Of a stretch of 64,000 nucleotides of DNA, positions 3,506 through 10,758 are shown piece by piece. Under the pieces are notes generated by a model. It had not been told where the DNA came from and did no database searches. It saw only the letters and a list, made by a program, of their open reading frames with translations. The translations under genes were made by a program, and so were the position numbers. Position 1 is the first letter of the stretch, and each line of letters starts with the position of its first letter. The stretch comes from Armatimonadota bacterium. GTDB lineage: Bacteria > Armatimonadota > DTGP01 > JAKQQT01. The stretch covers positions 1-64,000 of the forward strand of contig DASXVS010000042.1 in assembly GCA_036504095.1 (NCBI GenBank), written 5' to 3'.

Positions 3506-3760
3506 GGTAGACAGCTTGCGAATGCGGTTCGCCCCGTACCGCCTCGCCGCCCGTCCGCGCCATATCAGGTCGAGACCCTTCGCAGGCTCAGGGTGACGTA
3601 AGGGTCGGGTTCGCCCAATGCTTGTTTGGTCTTCCTCCGCGAGACCTCCCCGTACGGGTCCTCCGCGTTGTTGACGATGAGATTCTTCGCTGCGCTCAGA
3701 ATGACATGTTGGGTCGCCCGCGCTACGCCTGCAACCCTCCCCCTTTGGTCCCCCAGCATT
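3506..3760. repeat. Intergenic dispersed-repeat segment
   Basis: No gene is supported. The stretch contains boilerplate strings such as CCTTCGCAGGCTCAGGGTGA and GATTCTTCGCTGCGCTCAGA. The latter recurs almost unchanged near 32440. It ends in CCTCCCCCTTTGGTCCCCCA, the left half of the palindrome into which the IS481 element inserted. Confidence 0.5.
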
Positions 3761-4985
3761 TGTCCGATGTCAAGAGATCCTTTACAGTTTCTGACAACAG
3801 ATGGTTTACACCCGGGCCTCAGCGAGAGCGGCGATGCGGACGTTTGCGAAATAGATTGCATCATCGTGTAGTTCAGGGCGAATCTCCACCCATTCGTGGA
3901 TCAGACCTTTGCCAGCCCGGTAGAGATGGCCCTTGTAGGTAACAGTTCCATTCTGCTCGACCTTGCGGGTCACAGCGCCCTCTGGTATCACATGGGCCGG
4001 CAGCTTGTTTGGGCGTTGCTTGAAACTGCTTTCGTAGACGACCCCCGGAACGCGCATCCCCAACGCCTCGTGGGGCCGGACCCAGTTGTAGCCATATTGG
4101 TACTCGACGAGTATCCTCTGTGCCATCTCCACATTGGCCTGGTCTAGTTTGTCACCGAGTTCCAGTTTCAGGGTCTCGTGGAACCGTTCCACCTTTCCCT
4201 GCGTTTGCGGGTGGCGCACCCGACCGTGCAACGTGCGTATCCCCAGTAGCCACAGGTTCGCCTCGAAACGGGTGGGGCCCTTCGACTGCCAGTCGTTGAA
4301 CCCGTCCCCATTATCCGAAAGGATGCTGTCGGGCAAACCCACCTCGCCGAACAGGTTCCACAGCGCTTCGAACACCGTTTCCGTTGTCTTGTGCGGCAGT
4401 GCTGCAAGCAGCAACAGGAACCGCGAATGATCGTCCAAAACGCTCAACGGCCAGTAACGGTAACGCCGCGGCACCCCCTTGTAGTCCAATTGCCACAACT
4501 CGTTGCACCGATCACGCTCGAAGCGTTGGTCCCCTTGCGATAGTCTGACTTGACGGCCAACCAGGCCGTTGCGCTTCAGTATCCGGTCCACCGTTCGAAC
4601 GCACACGGGTGCCGTGGAATCACGCCACAACGTGACGTGCAACTTCTTCGCCCCCCACGCCCGGTGCTTCTCCTTCTCGGCCAGCACTATCTCCTCGACG
4701 CTCAAAGGCGATACACGAGCGATTGCGTGTGGCCGCCGCGAACGTTCCGTCAACTCGGCGATCCCTTCCTCCCGCGCTCGATTCACCCACAGATACGCCG
4801 TTGTACGGCTGACGCCAGACTGGCGGGCGGCTTCCGATACGCTGATGCCACCCTCCAGCACCAGGCTCGCCAATCGTTTCCGTGACTGCATAAGCGATTG
4901 CTCCTGAAATGGCATCCCACACCTCCCGAGCGAAGTGTAAAGGATGTCTTGTCAGAAACTGTCCACCATCTATTGTCATCAGACA
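3761..4985 (-). mobile_element. Complete IS481-family insertion sequence (1225 bp)
   Basis: Terminal inverted repeats are TGTCCGATGTCAAGAGATCC at 3761-3780 and, on the other strand at the left end, TGTCTGATGACAATAGATGG (4966-4985), matching at 16 of 20 positions. The 4-bp sequence CATT flanks both ends (3757-3760 and 4986-4989) and looks like the target duplication. The element encodes one transposase and no passenger gene. Removing it restores a CCCCC-agcatt-GGGGGG palindrome. Confidence 0.9.
3806..4915 (-). CDS. IS481-family transposase
   Basis: 369 residues, full length for IS481. The N-terminal helix-turn-helix (ISVSEAARQSGVSRTTAYLWVNRA, about residues 24-47) binds DNA ends. The rve-type DDE core follows: LWQLDYKG with the first Asp, VLDDHSR, SDNGDGFN with the second Asp, and GKVERFHETLK with the catalytic Glu. 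No frameshift is seen, so the copy may be active. It is the sole gene of the element at 3761-4985, and its C-terminus is identical to the partial copy at the window start. Confidence 0.95.
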   Translation of the reverse strand: MPFQEQSLMQSRKRLASLVLEGGISVSEAARQSGVSRTTAYLWVNRAREEGIAELTERSRRPHAIARVSPLSVEEIVLAEKEKHRAWGAKKLHVTLWRDSTAPVCVRTVDRILKRNGLVGRQVRLSQGDQRFERDRCNELWQLDYKGVPRRYRYWPLSVLDDHSRFLLLLAALPHKTTETVFEALWNLFGEVGLPDSILSDNGDGFNDWQSKGPTRFEANLWLLGIRTLHGRVRHPQTQGKVERFHETLKLELGDKLDQANVEMAQRILVEYQYGYNWVRPHEALGMRVPGVVYESSFKQRPNKLPAHVIPEGAVTRKVEQNGTVTYKGHLYRAGKGLIHEWVEIRPELHDDAIYFANVRIAALAEARV

Positions 4986-4989
4986 CATT

Positions 4990-5122
4990 GGGGGGTAGGG
5001 GGGCTCCGGGACGACCATGCGATGTCGGCGAGGACGCCGACACTACCGGATTGGACGATGGACGATAGAAGATGGAAGTTGGATGGGAGTCCGGCTGCTG
5101 TCTCCCGCCTCCTGTCTCCTCC
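4990..5122. repeat. Intergenic repeat debris before the inverted-leader module
   Basis: No gene seen. It contains TGGACGATGGACGATAGAAG followed by ATGGAAGTTGGATGG, a dispersed string that reappears near 46381, and short hairpin-forming GC-rich text (GTCGGCGAGGACGCCGAC). Confidence 0.4.
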
Positions 5123-5172
5123 AAAAAAACTTCAGACAAAACCGCCTCCTCGCGGGCTAGTAAGTAGGAGGC
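5123..5172 (+). repeat. Inverted leader, left copy (ends in a ribosome binding site)
   Basis: This 50-bp sequence runs from an A7 tract through ACTTCAGACAAAA and CTCGCGGGCTAGTAAGTAGG to AGGC. It matches the reverse complement of 7577-7626 at 47 of 50 positions. The GGAGG at its end sits 7 bases before the ATG at 5179. The same sequence therefore serves as 5' leader for two convergent genes and forms the ends of a 2.5 kb module. Confidence 0.85.
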
Positions 5173-5178
5173 ATTCAA

Positions 5179-6015
5179 ATGGCTACTAACCCTGCACGGT
5201 CCGAGGGGGACGGTATGATACGCGGCAAAGGACCGCGGGAGATCGCCGTTGCGAGCCGCGGCGATTGGCCCCCTTATGGCGAGGGGAGCGCGGCCTGGCC
5301 GGTGTGGCCGTCCATGTCGAGCATCACGCGGCTGCGGGTGATGAGCTATCTCTGCCAGCACGTTCCCGCCGGTTCCCCGGCCATCGCACGGGACCTGGGG
5401 ATAGCGCCGACGACGGTGCGGTCCGTTTTGTGGGGCCTGAAGTCCACGTGGGCCGTCAGCGTGTGCGCGAGGCCAGCGAAGCGGAGGCGGCCGAAGTCAT
5501 CGGCCGGCAACATTAAGTACCTGGACTGGCAGGCCACCGATACCGGGCGCAAATGGCTGTGGCGCTACGGTTGGGTCACGCGGCGCATCGGGTGGGACCT
5601 GGAGTGGCAGACGGCCGGCTACGAGGGGCGGCTGGATGTGATGCCTTACGACGTCTTGCACGACCACGCCGAACCCTCCCTGCTGCGTCCCACACCGCTG
5701 GCCATCATGCATTACCTCACGCGGTGCCCTCCGGAGCAAACCCCGACCCTTGCAGAGCACTGCGGGTTCAGCTACTTCTCCGTGCACGCGCTCCTGCAAA
5801 AGTGGTGGCGGCTCGGCTGGGTGGAAAAGACGCAGAACGCCGTGGAGCCGCGCAGCTACTTCGCGCCGGACTTCGTGACGGAAGCCCCGCGCTGGCTCCT
5901 CACGGAACGCGGAAAGCAGGCAGTGGAGCGCCACACCGCCGCGCTCCGATGGGCCAGCCAGACCGCCGGTTACACCCCACCGCCGGACGACCCGTTCCTG
6001 AACGATGAATTATGA
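5179..6015 (+). CDS. Double winged-helix DNA-binding protein
   Basis: 278 residues, with the start fixed by GGAGG in the 50-bp leader. Two similar halves are visible. The first, about residues 44-125, runs from SSITRLRVMSYLCQHVP through SPAIARDLGIAPTTVRSVLWGL to TDTGRKWL. The second, about 170-260, runs from LRPTPLAIMHYLTRCPP through TLAEHCGFSYFSVHALLQKW to LTERGKQAVERH. Each fits a MarR/ArsR-like winged helix with a C-terminal LTxxG wing. It converges on a terminase-like gene that uses the same leader. It may be a regulator or, by analogy with phage packaging, a small-terminase-like DNA-recognition partner. The latter is inference. Confidence 0.65.
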   Translation: MATNPARSEGDGMIRGKGPREIAVASRGDWPPYGEGSAAWPVWPSMSSITRLRVMSYLCQHVPAGSPAIARDLGIAPTTVRSVLWGLKSTWAVSVCARPAKRRRPKSSAGNIKYLDWQATDTGRKWLWRYGWVTRRIGWDLEWQTAGYEGRLDVMPYDVLHDHAEPSLLRPTPLAIMHYLTRCPPEQTPTLAEHCGFSYFSVHALLQKWWRLGWVEKTQNAVEPRSYFAPDFVTEAPRWLLTERGKQAVERHTAALRWASQTAGYTPPPDDPFLNDEL

Positions 6016-6051
6016 GCGAGGAACGATGAATGCACTCCGCCCTCCCCGTCT

Positions 6052-6092
6052 CCCCCTTCCCGCCGCGCGTAGCGCGGGAATCGGGAAGGGGG
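6052..6092. terminator. Hairpin between convergent genes
   Basis: CCCCCTTCCCG at 6052-6062 pairs perfectly with CGGGAAGGGGG at 6082-6092, with an inner CGCGCgtaGCGCG stem. It lies between the two stops at 6015 and 6214 and could terminate from either side. No long T tract follows. The rest of 6016-6213 is dispersed boilerplate with no gene. Confidence 0.5.
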
Positions 6093-6213
6093 CCGGGGGG
6101 TTAGGTCCGGAAGCGTCGGGCTCGGAGGCCCAACCTCCCGTTTCTGGCAGAATCTCGAATCCTCTGCGCTCCTCAGCGTCCTCTGCGCCCTCTGCGGTAG
6201 ATCGGGATGATTT

Positions 6214-7569
6214 TCAGGAAAGCACCTTGACGTTGATCAACGCCGGGCCGCACTTCGTCGCTTGCAGCGCCAGGGCCAGCGCCCAGAGCTTGTCCGCGTG
6301 GGCCCCGTCCTTCACCGGCGCGTCATAGCACGGTATGCCGGACTCGCGCACGGTCCGGCGGAGCGATTGGATCTGGTCCATCAGGCTGCGGTTCCGCGGG
6401 ATGGTCAGCGTGCCGCGCTCCAGGTCCCGCTTCAGGGCGGACGCCATCCGCTCCTTGCCGGCGGCGGTGAAAGTCACGGGTACCACGCGTTCCGGGCACT
6501 GCGCCATGATGCGTTCGCCCAGCTCGCAGCCGATGCCGGTGGCGTCGATGCACGCCATCTTCACGCCCGGCACCGCCAGGCAATCCATGATCGCGTTTTC
6601 CTGCTGCTCAAAGGTGGCGTTGACCATCGTGCGGATGCAGCACACGGTATGGCGGTCGCGTTCCTCGCGGAGGACCACGATCTCGGTGGCGTTGGCCACG
6701 CGGCCCACGTCTACTCCCACGAACAGCCGGCCCGGAACGGCGGCCAGGGCCGCCCAGGTGCCGGCCAGCGGGATGTCGTTCGCGTTCGCCTCGATCAGCG
6801 GCCACGAGATGAACGCGTCGTTGCTGTCCACGAAGCGCAGTTCGTATTCCTGCTGGAACGCCTCCAGGTCCAGCGTCTCGCGGATCGCGATGAGGACGTC
6901 GGTGCCGTAGACGCCAACGCGGCGGTCCGTATCGGCGTCCGGGTCCTGCCGGGCCGCCTCGACGTCGTTGCACAGCCACGGGGCGTCCCACCATGGCACG
7001 ACGTGCTGGGAGTAGTGGGCGGCGATGAGCGGGTCAGACGTCACGCGGAAAAAGGCGCCGATGTCCCCGTTCGGGGTGGACGCGGCGGTGATGCGTCCTC
7101 CGTGGGTGATCACGGGGATCGCCCCGGTATACAGGCGCTGGGAGTTTGGGTAGAACGCCATCTCGTCCAGGTAGATGTTGGCGCCGGAGCGGCCCCGCGG
7201 CGAGCGGCAGGGAAACGAGAGGAGTCGCCCGCGGTTCGCGAAGCGTATCTCGCGGACGCCGGAGAGGGTAAGGCGCGGACGCATCCGCGCGGGCAGGCTT
7301 TCGTACAGGTCCATGGCGTAGAGGATCTTCTCCGCCGCCTCCTCGCGGTTGAGGCTCACGAAGATGCTGAAGCGCCCGTAAGCCACGGCCTCGGCCAGCG
7401 CCTCCAGCGCGAACAGCCAGGAGAACCCCGTCTGCCGGGCCTTCAGAACGGCGCGGAACCGGCTGCGGTCCGCCAGAAAACGCTGCTGATAGTCGGTGAG
7501 TGTGTACCCGGACGAACGGACGGCGGACGCGATCACCTCGTCCGCCGTCAAGCCGTTACGCTTCGCCAT
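6214..7569 (-). CDS. Stand-alone phage terminase large-subunit-like (Mu gp28-type) protein
   Basis: 451 residues. The ATPase half has a Walker A-like KARQTGFSW (about residue 38), Walker B IYLDEMAF (about 133) and the coupling motif ITAASTPNG. The RNase H-like nuclease half shows acidic residues in FVGVDVGR, MACIDATGIG and GAHADKLWALALA. This layout is that of headful packaging terminases, closest in style to Mu gp28. No portal, capsid, protease or tail gene is nearby, which is unusual. The ATG follows GGAGG at the end of the right leader copy (7577-7626). The frame is intact, so it may be a retained remnant or part of a small mobile module. Confidence 0.8.
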   Translation of the reverse strand: MAKRNGLTADEVIASAVRSSGYTLTDYQQRFLADRSRFRAVLKARQTGFSWLFALEALAEAVAYGRFSIFVSLNREEAAEKILYAMDLYESLPARMRPRLTLSGVREIRFANRGRLLSFPCRSPRGRSGANIYLDEMAFYPNSQRLYTGAIPVITHGGRITAASTPNGDIGAFFRVTSDPLIAAHYSQHVVPWWDAPWLCNDVEAARQDPDADTDRRVGVYGTDVLIAIRETLDLEAFQQEYELRFVDSNDAFISWPLIEANANDIPLAGTWAALAAVPGRLFVGVDVGRVANATEIVVLREERDRHTVCCIRTMVNATFEQQENAIMDCLAVPGVKMACIDATGIGCELGERIMAQCPERVVPVTFTAAGKERMASALKRDLERGTLTIPRNRSLMDQIQSLRRTVRESGIPCYDAPVKDGAHADKLWALALALQATKCGPALINVKVLS

Positions 7570-7576
7570 GATTTTG

Positions 7577-7626
7577 GCCTCCTACTTACTAGCCCGCGAG
7601 GAAGCCCTTTTGTCTGAAGTTTTTTT
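7577..7626 (-). repeat. Inverted leader, right copy
   Basis: Reverse complement of the left copy at 5123-5172 with three mismatches. It carries the ribosome binding site of the terminase-like gene. The inverted pair could allow inversion of the 2.4 kb between, swapping which gene lies next to which flank. Confidence 0.85.
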
Positions 7627-7695
7627 CAGCATCCAGCATCCGGCATCCAGCATCCAGGTCCGAAGTCCGGCCTGGATGCTGAATGCTGGATGCTG
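7627..7695 (-). terminator. Long imperfect hairpin of GCATCCA repeats
   Basis: The left arm (7627-7658), built of CAGCATCCAGCATCC-type units, pairs with CCTGGATGCTGAATGCTGGATGCTG-type sequence at 7671-7695. It lies seven bases past the stop of the dockerin gene and next to the T7 tract at 7620-7626, so on the minus strand it could end transcription. The same GCATCC repeat type occurs near 38281-38310. Confidence 0.55.
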
Positions 7696-7701
7696 CCCCC
7701 C

Positions 7702-10700
7702 TCACAGCCCGTGGGCTATGCGGTTCACCTTGACGGCGTCTTTCATGTCCACAACGCCGTCACCATTGACGTCCGCGCTCGGGAAGGCGATTCCCGGCAC
7801 GGTTGAGGTTGTGAGTCCGCCCGCCAACTGCGTGGCCAGAATCACGTCCTTGGAGTCTACAACGCCGTCCTGGTTGATGTCGCCAAGCAGCGGCGGGCCA
7901 CCCAGCAGAATGGCGGAAGTCCAGGTGTTCGGGGTGGTTTCCGCGCCCGGCAATCCGGTGAGACTCATCAGGGTATCGGTACCCGGCGCGCTGGAGTCAT
8001 TGTCCCGCCCTTGCAGGTTGAACCCGATCACGCCTCCAATCGCCGGTGTATAACTCCACGCGTTCGGCTGCTTCCACGGCAGCGATCCCTCGATGGCATA
8101 CCCGCCTGCCAGGCGCACGAATTTGATGACGTTCAAAACGCCTTTCAGGGCATCCCTGCTCTGTGGCGAATTGGCGATGGCGGTATAATCCACGGTGCCG
8201 GCGGCCGGCGGGTCGGCGGAAATCCTCACATCGAAGTCACTGTCCGTGTAGGATGTTCCCCCATTGTGCTGGTGGTCGGAGAGGCTCAGGAACATCTGGA
8301 GCCCGTCTCGCCCGAGCAGATCGGTGGGATCTACTGGCGAAGCCGGCAGCGAGACCACGTCGTCCGCCACGAACGCGGCGAAATACAGGTTGTCTGTATC
8401 CCACTTCAGTTTCACCTGCGCCGAGTAATCGGCCAGGCCGCTCCAGTGGCCGGGCAGCAGGTCCTGCACCGCCTGGTTGAGGTTGATGATGGGCGCGCCA
8501 TTCCATTCGGCAGCGGTGATGTTGCCGTCGATGGTGATGGGCGTCGTTGTGTGGAAGATGGGTATCTGGCCCGTGAGGACCACGTTGAACGGGTTGCTGT
8601 CCACGGCCTCTTCCGGATCATCGCTGGGCGTCGCGGTAAGCACGTAACCCACACCGGCCTTTGTGACCGAGAACTGGTTGAAGGTGACCCTGCCTCCGGA
8701 AACCTGCCCGGTAGTCGTCCCGGTCAGGGTGGCGCCGTCCGACCCGGTACCGGGCTTGATCGACAGGGAGACGGAACCCGTCATGTCTGTGATGAGGTTG
8801 CCGTCCGGGTCACGGGCCGAGATAACGGCCCCACCGGGCAGCGCACCGCCAACCACGGCCGTACCCAGGATAACGTCCCAATGCCACTTGGAACCCTTCC
8901 GAACGTAAGGCCTATAGCACACGGTAACCTCGCAGGTCCTGCAGTTAACGTCGGTGAATTCATAACGTACACAGAATGAAAGGCTGTCCGCACACGGCCA
9001 GCCGGGTATCGGTGGGAACTGGATGTTCATGGGGAATGCCTGCCCCGCGCCGAGGTTCACGCCGGCCGGCGCTACAGACTTCCAGACCATTGCGTGAGCG
9101 TTGACCAGCGGGATGCTGGCGTTGAAGCCAGGACTCGCGCCCCAGCCGATGAGGTAGCTGTTCACCGGGCCGGCTGTGCCGCAGGTGACCGGGGTAAACG
9201 TCCGATTCGTGGTGACCACCGTACCCACGACACGAATGATGGGGCCAAGTCCCGCGAGAACGCTGAGGGTTGGCGCGAAAGTGGCCGAACCGCCTGGGCC
9301 TAGCGTGAAGGTGCTTGGCGTTGCCGTCAGCATTACGCCGTCGCAGCAGGGTTTCGGCGTAATGTCACACGGCTGGATTCCGATCTCCTTTGTGATCGGC
9401 GGACACGCCGGCCCCATGGAGATCGTCACTGTCACAACGCCGCCACCGGTCGGATTCCAGTTGATGGTCACGCAAGGGCCGTTGTTCGGTCCCACGATGG
9501 TCCCGTTGGTAACAGACCACAGGTACGTGGCGCCCGGCGGCGGTGGCGTCACGCAATAGACGCCTTGCTGGCAGGTTGTGGGAGGCCCGGTAATGGTGAA
9601 CACTGGTGTGGGGCACGGCGTCCAGCACTTGGTGACGGTGTTGGAGGTGTAGACGACGCCAGTGGCATCCGTCCACGTGGCGACGATATAGTCGCACCCG
9701 GGGCCCTTCGTGTCCGGATACGTCCAGGATGCCACGCCGCCGACGTTGGTGTTGCCGGTTCCGGTGGCGCCGGTATTAGGGCCTGCGATTACGGTGAACG
9801 TCACGACCGTGTTGACCGGCGGAATGGGTGTGATCGTGGCGCTGACGGTGTGATTCGTTCCCACCGGGTTGGTCGCGGTTTTGGGTCCAAGCTGAATATT
9901 CGTGATGACATCAACTTTGTCGCCGGTGACGATGATGTAGGGCAGGCCGTGGGTCCCGTCCGTGGCGCTGTACACGTTGGTCAGGTTTTGGCCGATGGCG
10001 AACACGTAGAAGTTGGCCGGCCAGGAGTCGAACCCTTCGTGCATCGAGCAGCCCCATCCGGAGAGATTGGCGTCCAACAGCAGCGGCACAGGCGGCAGGC
10101 CGACGCTTGGTCCCGTGAGACCAGGTGCGGTCGCTACGATGTGTGCGTTGTTGTAACACCCAAGCTGGCCGTGAATCATGAAAGTGCCGAACTGGTCCAT
10201 CAACGGCAGGGGTTGTGGCGTGACGGGCGCGGCGTCGTAGTAGCAGCTCAGTGAAACGAAGGCACCGGTTTTTGCGGGGTTGTTTGCCGCGAAGTAGATG
10301 CCGCGGCGTTTCAGGTCTGTTCCCCTGTCCTTCAAGCCGGGAAGTGTTTCGGTGTGCAGGGCTTCATCGGTGCCTGTGATGAGGATGTTGCCTGTAACGG
10401 CTGGCGACCAGACTGTCCGGTTGGCCAACGCGGCCGTTATAGGGCCGGTACCACCAACGCAGAGCGGGTCGCCCAGGATGATGGCCCGGAAGGTCGCAAA
10501 ATTGGCGGTGGTCATGCTGCCCCACGTAGTGGCGTTGTTCAGCACAACATCGAAGCCGAGGTTGAGCGCTTCCACCGCTTCCTGGCTTGTCGCGCCGCCA
10601 TAGACGGTGTCGTCAAGGATTATGACGGAATTACCGGCAACGGGGGCGTTGACCAGGTTTGTGTAGGTGGTGTTGGCGCCAGATGGCGCGGCAAGGGCGC

Positions 10701-10758
10701 CGGCCAGGCCGGCCACAAGGAATGAGACACGGAGCCACACCGGAATGATGCACCTCAT
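7702..10758 (-). CDS. Large secreted Ig-like/CBM9-like protein with type I dockerin
   Basis: 1018 residues with a signal peptide (VSFLVAGLAGALAAPSGA). The first 280 residues contain SVIILDDTVYGGATSQEAVEAL and may form a Rossmann-like adhesion domain. Ig/PKD-like segments rich in Cys follow (CPTPVFTITGPPTTC; PCCDGVMLTATPSTFTLGPG). Around residue 740 PITIDGNITAAEWNGAPII opens a CBM9-like carbohydrate-binding domain. The C-terminus holds two full calcium-loop dockerin repeats, DINQDGVVDSKDV and DVNGDGVVDMKDA. No cohesin is in the window, so the dockerin is probably a surface-attachment or maturation tag. It is transcribed divergently from mutS. Confidence 0.8.
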   Translation of the reverse strand: MRCIIPVWLRVSFLVAGLAGALAAPSGANTTYTNLVNAPVAGNSVIILDDTVYGGATSQEAVEALNLGFDVVLNNATTWGSMTTANFATFRAIILGDPLCVGGTGPITAALANRTVWSPAVTGNILITGTDEALHTETLPGLKDRGTDLKRRGIYFAANNPAKTGAFVSLSCYYDAAPVTPQPLPLMDQFGTFMIHGQLGCYNNAHIVATAPGLTGPSVGLPPVPLLLDANLSGWGCSMHEGFDSWPANFYVFAIGQNLTNVYSATDGTHGLPYIIVTGDKVDVITNIQLGPKTATNPVGTNHTVSATITPIPPVNTVVTFTVIAGPNTGATGTGNTNVGGVASWTYPDTKGPGCDYIVATWTDATGVVYTSNTVTKCWTPCPTPVFTITGPPTTCQQGVYCVTPPPPGATYLWSVTNGTIVGPNNGPCVTINWNPTGGGVVTVTISMGPACPPITKEIGIQPCDITPKPCCDGVMLTATPSTFTLGPGGSATFAPTLSVLAGLGPIIRVVGTVVTTNRTFTPVTCGTAGPVNSYLIGWGASPGFNASIPLVNAHAMVWKSVAPAGVNLGAGQAFPMNIQFPPIPGWPCADSLSFCVRYEFTDVNCRTCEVTVCYRPYVRKGSKWHWDVILGTAVVGGALPGGAVISARDPDGNLITDMTGSVSLSIKPGTGSDGATLTGTTTGQVSGGRVTFNQFSVTKAGVGYVLTATPSDDPEEAVDSNPFNVVLTGQIPIFHTTTPITIDGNITAAEWNGAPIINLNQAVQDLLPGHWSGLADYSAQVKLKWDTDNLYFAAFVADDVVSLPASPVDPTDLLGRDGLQMFLSLSDHQHNGGTSYTDSDFDVRISADPPAAGTVDYTAIANSPQSRDALKGVLNVIKFVRLAGGYAIEGSLPWKQPNAWSYTPAIGGVIGFNLQGRDNDSSAPGTDTLMSLTGLPGAETTPNTWTSAILLGGPPLLGDINQDGVVDSKDVILATQLAGGLTTSTVPGIAFPSADVNGDGVVDMKDAVKVNRIAHGL

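Follow-up and report, generated by a model that had tools for sequence, protein, structure and literature searches.

Capsid-forming phage satellites (cfPICIs) encode heads and packaging but no tails and are contiguous islands with an integrase, and PBSX of Bacillus subtilis is one contiguous defective prophage with a tail. Gene transfer agents (GTAs), for which the criteria are taken here as printed in PMC9662315, are built from proteins of tailed phages whose genome is endogenised, often across several loci, and is not itself fully packageable; they form caudovirion-like particles, which package mostly random host DNA and deliver it to other cells, and they are mostly inherited vertically and co-diversify with the host. 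RcGTA is described there as a viriform encoded at five loci of about 20 kb (PMC9662315). GafA, a protein with two separate DNA-binding domains, is described as acting at the -10/-35 region of GTA promoters that lie scattered in the genome (PMC9638019; PMC11150451). The window, i.e. the whole stretch of 64,000 nucleotides that was analysed (part of C42), contains a gene pair which is probably one of 11 scattered loci forming a single regulon of domesticated phage head-and-packaging genes, GTA-like in character and served by a promoter-like leader.

The pair consists of a gene of a double winged-helix protein and a gene of a terminase large subunit (TerL), each preceded by a copy of the same 50-nt leader in inverted orientation (Table 1). 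The match of 47 out of 50 bases between one copy and the reverse complement of the other, reported in the initial annotation, was confirmed by an inverted-repeat search (94%). A search of the whole genome with the leader (draft assembly of 4,680,540 bases, i.e. 4.68 Mb, in 80 contigs) revealed 13 copies spread over 11 loci. The pattern TTCAGACAAA-N14-GGCTAGTAAGT, a core of 21 bases with a spacer of 14 bases in 13/13 copies, has 13 exact matches genome-wide and no near-matches with one to three mismatches, and a backwards-read control pattern gave no match; the 50-base repeat is thus far above chance. As 11 of the 13 copies lie elsewhere in the genome, the window pair is not a private module.

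Table 1. Positions of the leader copies, genes and neighbouring features (plain numbers refer to the window, prefixed numbers to the record named)
Feature	Position	Strand	Remarks
IS481-like transposase gene	3806-4915	-	within 3751-4995
Imperfect inverted repeats bracketing the transposase gene	3768-3789/4933-4954
Micro-repeats at leader borders	5090-5122, 7627-7695		window examples
Leader copy 1	5123-5172	+	A-tract, TTCAGACAAA, 14-base spacer, GGCTAGTAAGT, Shine-Dalgarno AGGAGG at 5166-5171
Two-box core, copy 1	5131-5165	+	TTCAGACAAA-N14-GGCTAGTAAGT; boxes and spacing identical in 13/13 copies
Double winged-helix protein	5179-6015	+	278 aa; the genome has 9 such paralogues
TerL (ATPase and RNase H-like nuclease)	6214-7569	-	451 aa; one of 4 paralogues
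Leader copy 2	7577-7626	-	Shine-Dalgarno at 7578-7583
Two-box core, copy 2	7584-7618	-	invariant
Secreted-looking protein	7702-10758		CBM9 plus dockerin
Leader loci	C42 (window), C40, C64, C8, C25, C16, C46, C24, C53, C48		two copies each on C42 and C40; two loci about 99 kb apart on C48
Head operon (C24)	L016:8220-13056		portal, protease, 141-aa protein, capsid, adaptor, 114-aa protein, 131-aa protein, in this order
Capsid genes	L016:10387-11526; L117:2130-3263
Scanned member of the head operon	L016:12661-13053
Secreted-looking protein	L016:5439-8117		beta-propeller
Secreted-looking protein	L017:5922-7196		dockerin
1113-aa protein	L014:8326-11667		upstream of the TerL gene on C16
Contiguous prophage	G000 C43:136000-170000		L127, L128

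When the leaders are aligned on the core, the two boxes are fully conserved and the spacer partly, and conservation falls sharply to background (<=0.8 bits) upstream of position -7 and beyond about +43. The sequences further upstream are unrelated between the copies, with a sharp 5' border at the A-tract. In about nine of the 13 leaders, low-complexity micro-repeats of the CTCCTGTCTCC, CAGCATCCAG and CCCTCAG types adjoin this border on the upstream side of the A-tract. The initial annotation considered the leader worth following in the genome and in relatives; the former yielded 11 copies beyond the window pair and the latter none (0/60 relatives, with the genus represented by one genome only). 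The leader was likewise not found in IMG/VR, and its letters had no match in the open-access papers searched.

Each of the 13 leader copies directly precedes an open gene of one of three types, namely TerL (four copies), double winged-helix protein (eight) and a phage head operon (one). The check proposed in the initial annotation, whether the leader always stands before the two gene types of the window, gave 12 of the 13 copies, the remaining one being at the head operon. With only three gene types behind 13 copies, the leader is not the boilerplate repeat in front of unrelated genes that the initial annotation had named as refuting its reading, and the suggestion there of a shared regulatory element is supported. 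The ninth winged-helix gene (C16) starts 41 bases after a leader-bearing TerL gene, in the same operon, and all TerL genes of the window family (n=4) and all winged-helix paralogues (n=9) in the genome sit in leader operons. A winged-helix gene adjoins TerL at three of the four TerL loci, convergently on C42, upstream in tandem on C40 and downstream in tandem on C16; at the fourth (C25) the leader lies about 225 bases from the contig end. The winged-helix gene on C46 is likewise situated at the end of its contig. All the leader genes are open, and dN/dS is well below 1 where tested, indicating purifying selection, with synonymous change among the TerL and winged-helix paralogues near or past saturation. 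An unchanged core against such deep gene divergence indicates selection on the leader element itself, and one trans-acting factor probably reads it. No tail or lysis genes were found behind any leader; the genome-wide search for tail genes, made with one family (PF10145), is weak evidence, since it missed a 997-aa ORF of tape-measure size in the prophage on C43.

The window TerL matched Terminase_6N and Terminase_6C of Pfam (1e-9 each) and phrog_2 (2e-31). In the alignment of the four paralogues (C42, C40, C25 and C16) KARQTGFS and YLDEMAF are invariant, as are the aspartates in the nuclease part; we take these to be the Walker and nuclease motifs of TerL, and the motif residues are kept in 4/4. 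The window protein is 58-60% identical to the other three, dN/dS over the six pairs is 0.13-0.39, and the four proteins form one clade in the tree (support 100/99). The TerL of G002, a genome of the same class, is placed next to this clade (90/85), on a long branch and therefore unsurely, and relatives outside the phylum show at most 36% identity (32 IMG/VR loci).

The winged-helix protein of the window was modelled by AlphaFold2 as two HTH-plus-wing units in tandem (mean pLDDT 77) and matched Pfam HTH_IclR at E 8e-5 (22.8 bits, cut-off 22). The double winged-helix and terminase-like identities proposed in the initial annotation were thus upheld by Pfam, PHROG and AlphaFold2. Identity to the other eight paralogues is 21-50%, and dN/dS of four winged-helix pairs is 0.33-0.46. 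The family gave only weak partial matches in four of 120 relatives (2e-6 to 9e-6), none was confirmed in IMG/VR or in phage records, and a fold search with the model returned generic winged-helix matches only (best PDB E 7.5e-3; best viral 5.9e-4). The winged-helix proteins may act as regulators of the leader, to which slightly less than an even chance is given; rather less confidently, they might be DNA selectors resembling the small terminase subunit and partnering TerL, a role that would fit their genes adjoining TerL.

The head operon on C24 encodes a portal (phrog_12, 1.6e-46; Pfam Phage_portal), an XkdF-like head maturation protease (phrog_3017, 1.6e-26; Pfam Peptidase_S78_2), a major capsid protein (phrog_1623, 7e-67; labelled virion structural protein in PHROG) and a head-tail adaptor (phrog_442, 1.5e-15). 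The capsid family phrog_1623 also matches in the B. subtilis control genome. The 131-aa protein has one hydrophobic stretch; the 114-aa protein did not match XkdH of Dulem virus 37, and its structure model was too poor to use (pLDDT 42). The six-gene head operon is also present in G001, a genome of another genus of the same family, with the gene order preserved and the 114-aa gene again the last; identities, in gene order, are 72.6 (portal), 67, 43, 66 (capsid), 54 and 66% (114-aa protein). G001 is 92% complete and consists of 760 contigs, of which the one with the head operon ends soon after the 114-aa gene. The leader was not found in G001, where the sequence in front of the head operon is single-copy, nor were a window-type TerL at 1e-20 or the winged-helix family at 1e-5. 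For the head genes, dN/dS is 0.20 (portal) and 0.25 (capsid).

Within the phylum, 24 of 291 genomes encode a portal of the broad C24 type, and relatives outside the phylum are about 27% identical (phage records, among the matches listed); in IMG/VR, patterns of the C24 portal and capsid were matched and no relative was confirmed. An insertion at about residues 140-210 of the capsid, common to both genera, matches baseplate and virion structural families. Contiguous TerL-portal-protease-capsid clusters were observed in G058, G083 and G109 of one genus (L118, L119 and L120); in each, portal and protease are separated by an extra, glycosyltransferase-like ORF of about 333-354 aa. G028, G041 and G015, which also share a genus (L097, L098 and L096), have one TerL gene, grouped in a short cluster with sigma-like, endolysin and holin-like genes, to which neck genes are added in G041; in G028 and G041 the cluster lies beside putative aspS/hisS. 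It looks like a conserved domesticated cluster.

Twenty proteins were scanned around the leader loci, including one member of the head operon. The neighbours scanned are host genes, among them recA, recR, diacylglycerol kinase, LigT, Nramp, a type II/IV secretion ATPase (T2SSE), prolyl peptidase and STAS. Among the scanned neighbours (n=20 proteins) no phage structural family and no integrase family was matched. The sole contiguous prophage found is located on C43 and contains integrase-like, TerL, portal and tail-like ORFs, of which the portal and terminase were named by search and the other products by reading of the sequences. As the scanned neighbours are host genes and this prophage has no leader copy, the leader genes are not visible remains of it, and the decayed prophage around the terminase envisaged in the initial annotation is not seen among those neighbours. 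Nor do structural genes, integrase and tail occur in one block at the leader loci.

The surroundings include several further features. Just upstream of the first leader of the window is an IS481-like transposase gene bracketed by imperfect inverted repeats. Large secreted-looking proteins adjoin several leader loci and carry CBM9 plus dockerin, beta-propeller and dockerin, respectively (Table 1). Upstream of the TerL gene on C16 is a 1113-aa protein with a putative P-loop NTPase motif, for which neither Pfam nor PADLOC gave a match at the cut-offs applied.

Another explanation could be that the leader genes are debris, either of a head-only, cfPICI-like satellite or of an extinct prophage that was broken up, with its genes and late promoter scattered and duplicated and without a working host function. 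A gene content restricted to the head would agree with this, as would the micro-repeats in the upstream flanks of the leaders and the separate tailed prophage on C43, a possible tail donor. The state of the genes argues otherwise: those listed are all open and under constraint where tested, the core is unchanged in 13/13 copies with none half-decayed, and the head operon is retained in a second genus. Also, the leader genes do not form a contiguous island with an integrase, the head operon being on C24 and the TerL genes on C42, C40, C25 and C16, and the 20 scanned proteins include no integrase family. Debris is thus considered unlikely, with roughly one chance in five left to it.

As to how the leader acts, a promoter/operator appears to be a better fit than an RNA element, judging from the two invariant boxes at fixed spacing, the freer spacer, the A-tract, the lack of conservation further up and the independence from the start codon. 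The last point comes from C24, where the leader starts 81 nt from the ATG and the gene has a Shine-Dalgarno sequence of its own. No sigma-70-like promoter was found at the window leaders, so that an alternative sigma factor or an activator likely reads the leader. A single dedicated factor would then serve all copies, and besides these two possibilities the winged-helix proteins are candidates, by analogy with GafA, a protein of two DNA-binding domains that reads GTA promoters at scattered sites.

It is improbable, more so than debris, that the leader acts in an mRNA transcribed from elsewhere, whether by a hairpin hiding the Shine-Dalgarno sequence, by binding a translational regulator or by anti-termination. 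The Shine-Dalgarno sequence does lie inside the conserved block, most copies could form a GCCTYC/GGAGGC helix (folding covered 8 of the 13 leaders), and anti-termination governs a known GTA. Pairing reaches 85.9% of cells, against 42-65% in slid versions, but it is no better than in shuffled columns (86.7%), and neither the consensus fold nor the pair counts reveal compensatory change or covariation; for the lack of covariation the hairpin is ranked below the promoter, though pairing exceeds that of the slid versions. Further, the helix is absent or weak in the C48b and C53 copies, the C24 copy has kept the boxes with an altered Shine-Dalgarno sequence, no conserved upstream sequence could carry a separate promoter, and no Rfam match exceeded the gathering score.

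The small mobile or invertible module suggested in the initial annotation, in which the leader would terminate a unit that transposes or inverts and the genes would be its cargo, fares worse and is very improbable. The sharp border at the A-tract, the unrelated upstream flanks and the presence of both leader orientations in the window might suggest such a cassette. Against this, the leader repeats at 10 further loci, where the two gene types stand apart or are otherwise arranged, just three gene types are carried, and the deep divergence of the gene copies contrasts with an undiverged leader. The leader genes have no shared 3' end, as no 11-base word is common to the 3' flanks of at least three of 12 genes; no recombinase gene was seen between the arms, 5123-7626 holding no credible gene besides the pair; and inverting 5173-7576 would separate neither gene from its leader. 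Finally, a defence or other non-capsid role of TerL and the winged-helix proteins, in which the head operon would belong to the set by coincidence, is the least probable reading, since no PADLOC model covers TerL or the window winged-helix protein and the head operon has the same exact leader core. In its favour, three of the 11 leader loci (C64, L010; C8, L012; C53, L017) have defence genes next to them (type IIG and type I restriction, type II methyltransferase, PDC-S41).

Under the preferred reading of a GTA-like regulon, all the leader loci would be switched on together by one factor acting at the leader; on co-expression capsids would assemble, and TerL would fill the heads with DNA. The packaged DNA would presumably be that of the host, as no packageable phage genome remains, and the system might act as a gene transfer agent or as a tail-less or tail-borrowing relative of one. 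A more daring proposal, which is unlikely as a whole, is a host-owned tail-less packaging machine of 11 loci, in which one head operon would be served by four terminases, each steered by interchangeable selectors from the nine-member winged-helix set, with one leader switching all: a GTA with selectable rather than random cargo.

If the regulon is real, a phage head and packaging motor has been dismantled, multiplied and wired into the host by a single short DNA element, and GTA-like systems would extend to a lineage for which the open-access literature searched has none. The 13 natural copies of one element would allow the control of such machines to be tested cleanly, and the two-box core could be used to find the regulon in further genomes of the genus. 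Nor would a terminase or winged-helix gene that stands alone then necessarily be prophage debris. No printed counterpart of the leader-gene system was found in the open-access literature, subscription papers and preprints being outside the search.

As in cfPICIs, the leader genes serve head and packaging functions, with no tail gene found; unlike the genes of cfPICIs, they are scattered among host genes. The XkdF-like protease domain is a likeness to PBSX-type heads; in contrast to these, the leader genes are neither contiguous nor accompanied by a tail that was found. To our knowledge, no GTA needs as many as four terminases and nine winged-helix proteins. Compared with the GTA criteria, the proteins are those of tailed phages and are encoded at 11 loci among host genes, a scatter that makes it likely that the system's own genome is not fully packageable. 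For the particle, head genes are in the regulon and no tail genes were found with the one tail family searched. The traces of vertical inheritance are divided: G001 has the head operon without this TerL and winged-helix family, and G002 has a TerL beside the four, without a portal. As the phage-derived proteins and the multi-locus arrangement are present, and packaging and delivery are putative, the system is termed GTA-like and not a GTA. Like RcGTA as described in PMC9662315, it has TerL, portal, protease and capsid genes derived from tailed phages at several endogenised loci, with co-regulation in RcGTA and probable co-regulation here. It differs, with packaging and transfer putative here, in having 11 loci, four TerLs, nine winged-helix paralogues and near-identical compact leaders, and no tail or lysis gene found. 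In comparison with GafA/GafYZ (PMC9638019; PMC11150451), to which the winged-helix proteins are likened by description, there are nine paralogues here, each itself inside a leader operon. Taken together, the leader-gene set appears to be a new relative of gene transfer agents, dispersed to an unusual degree.
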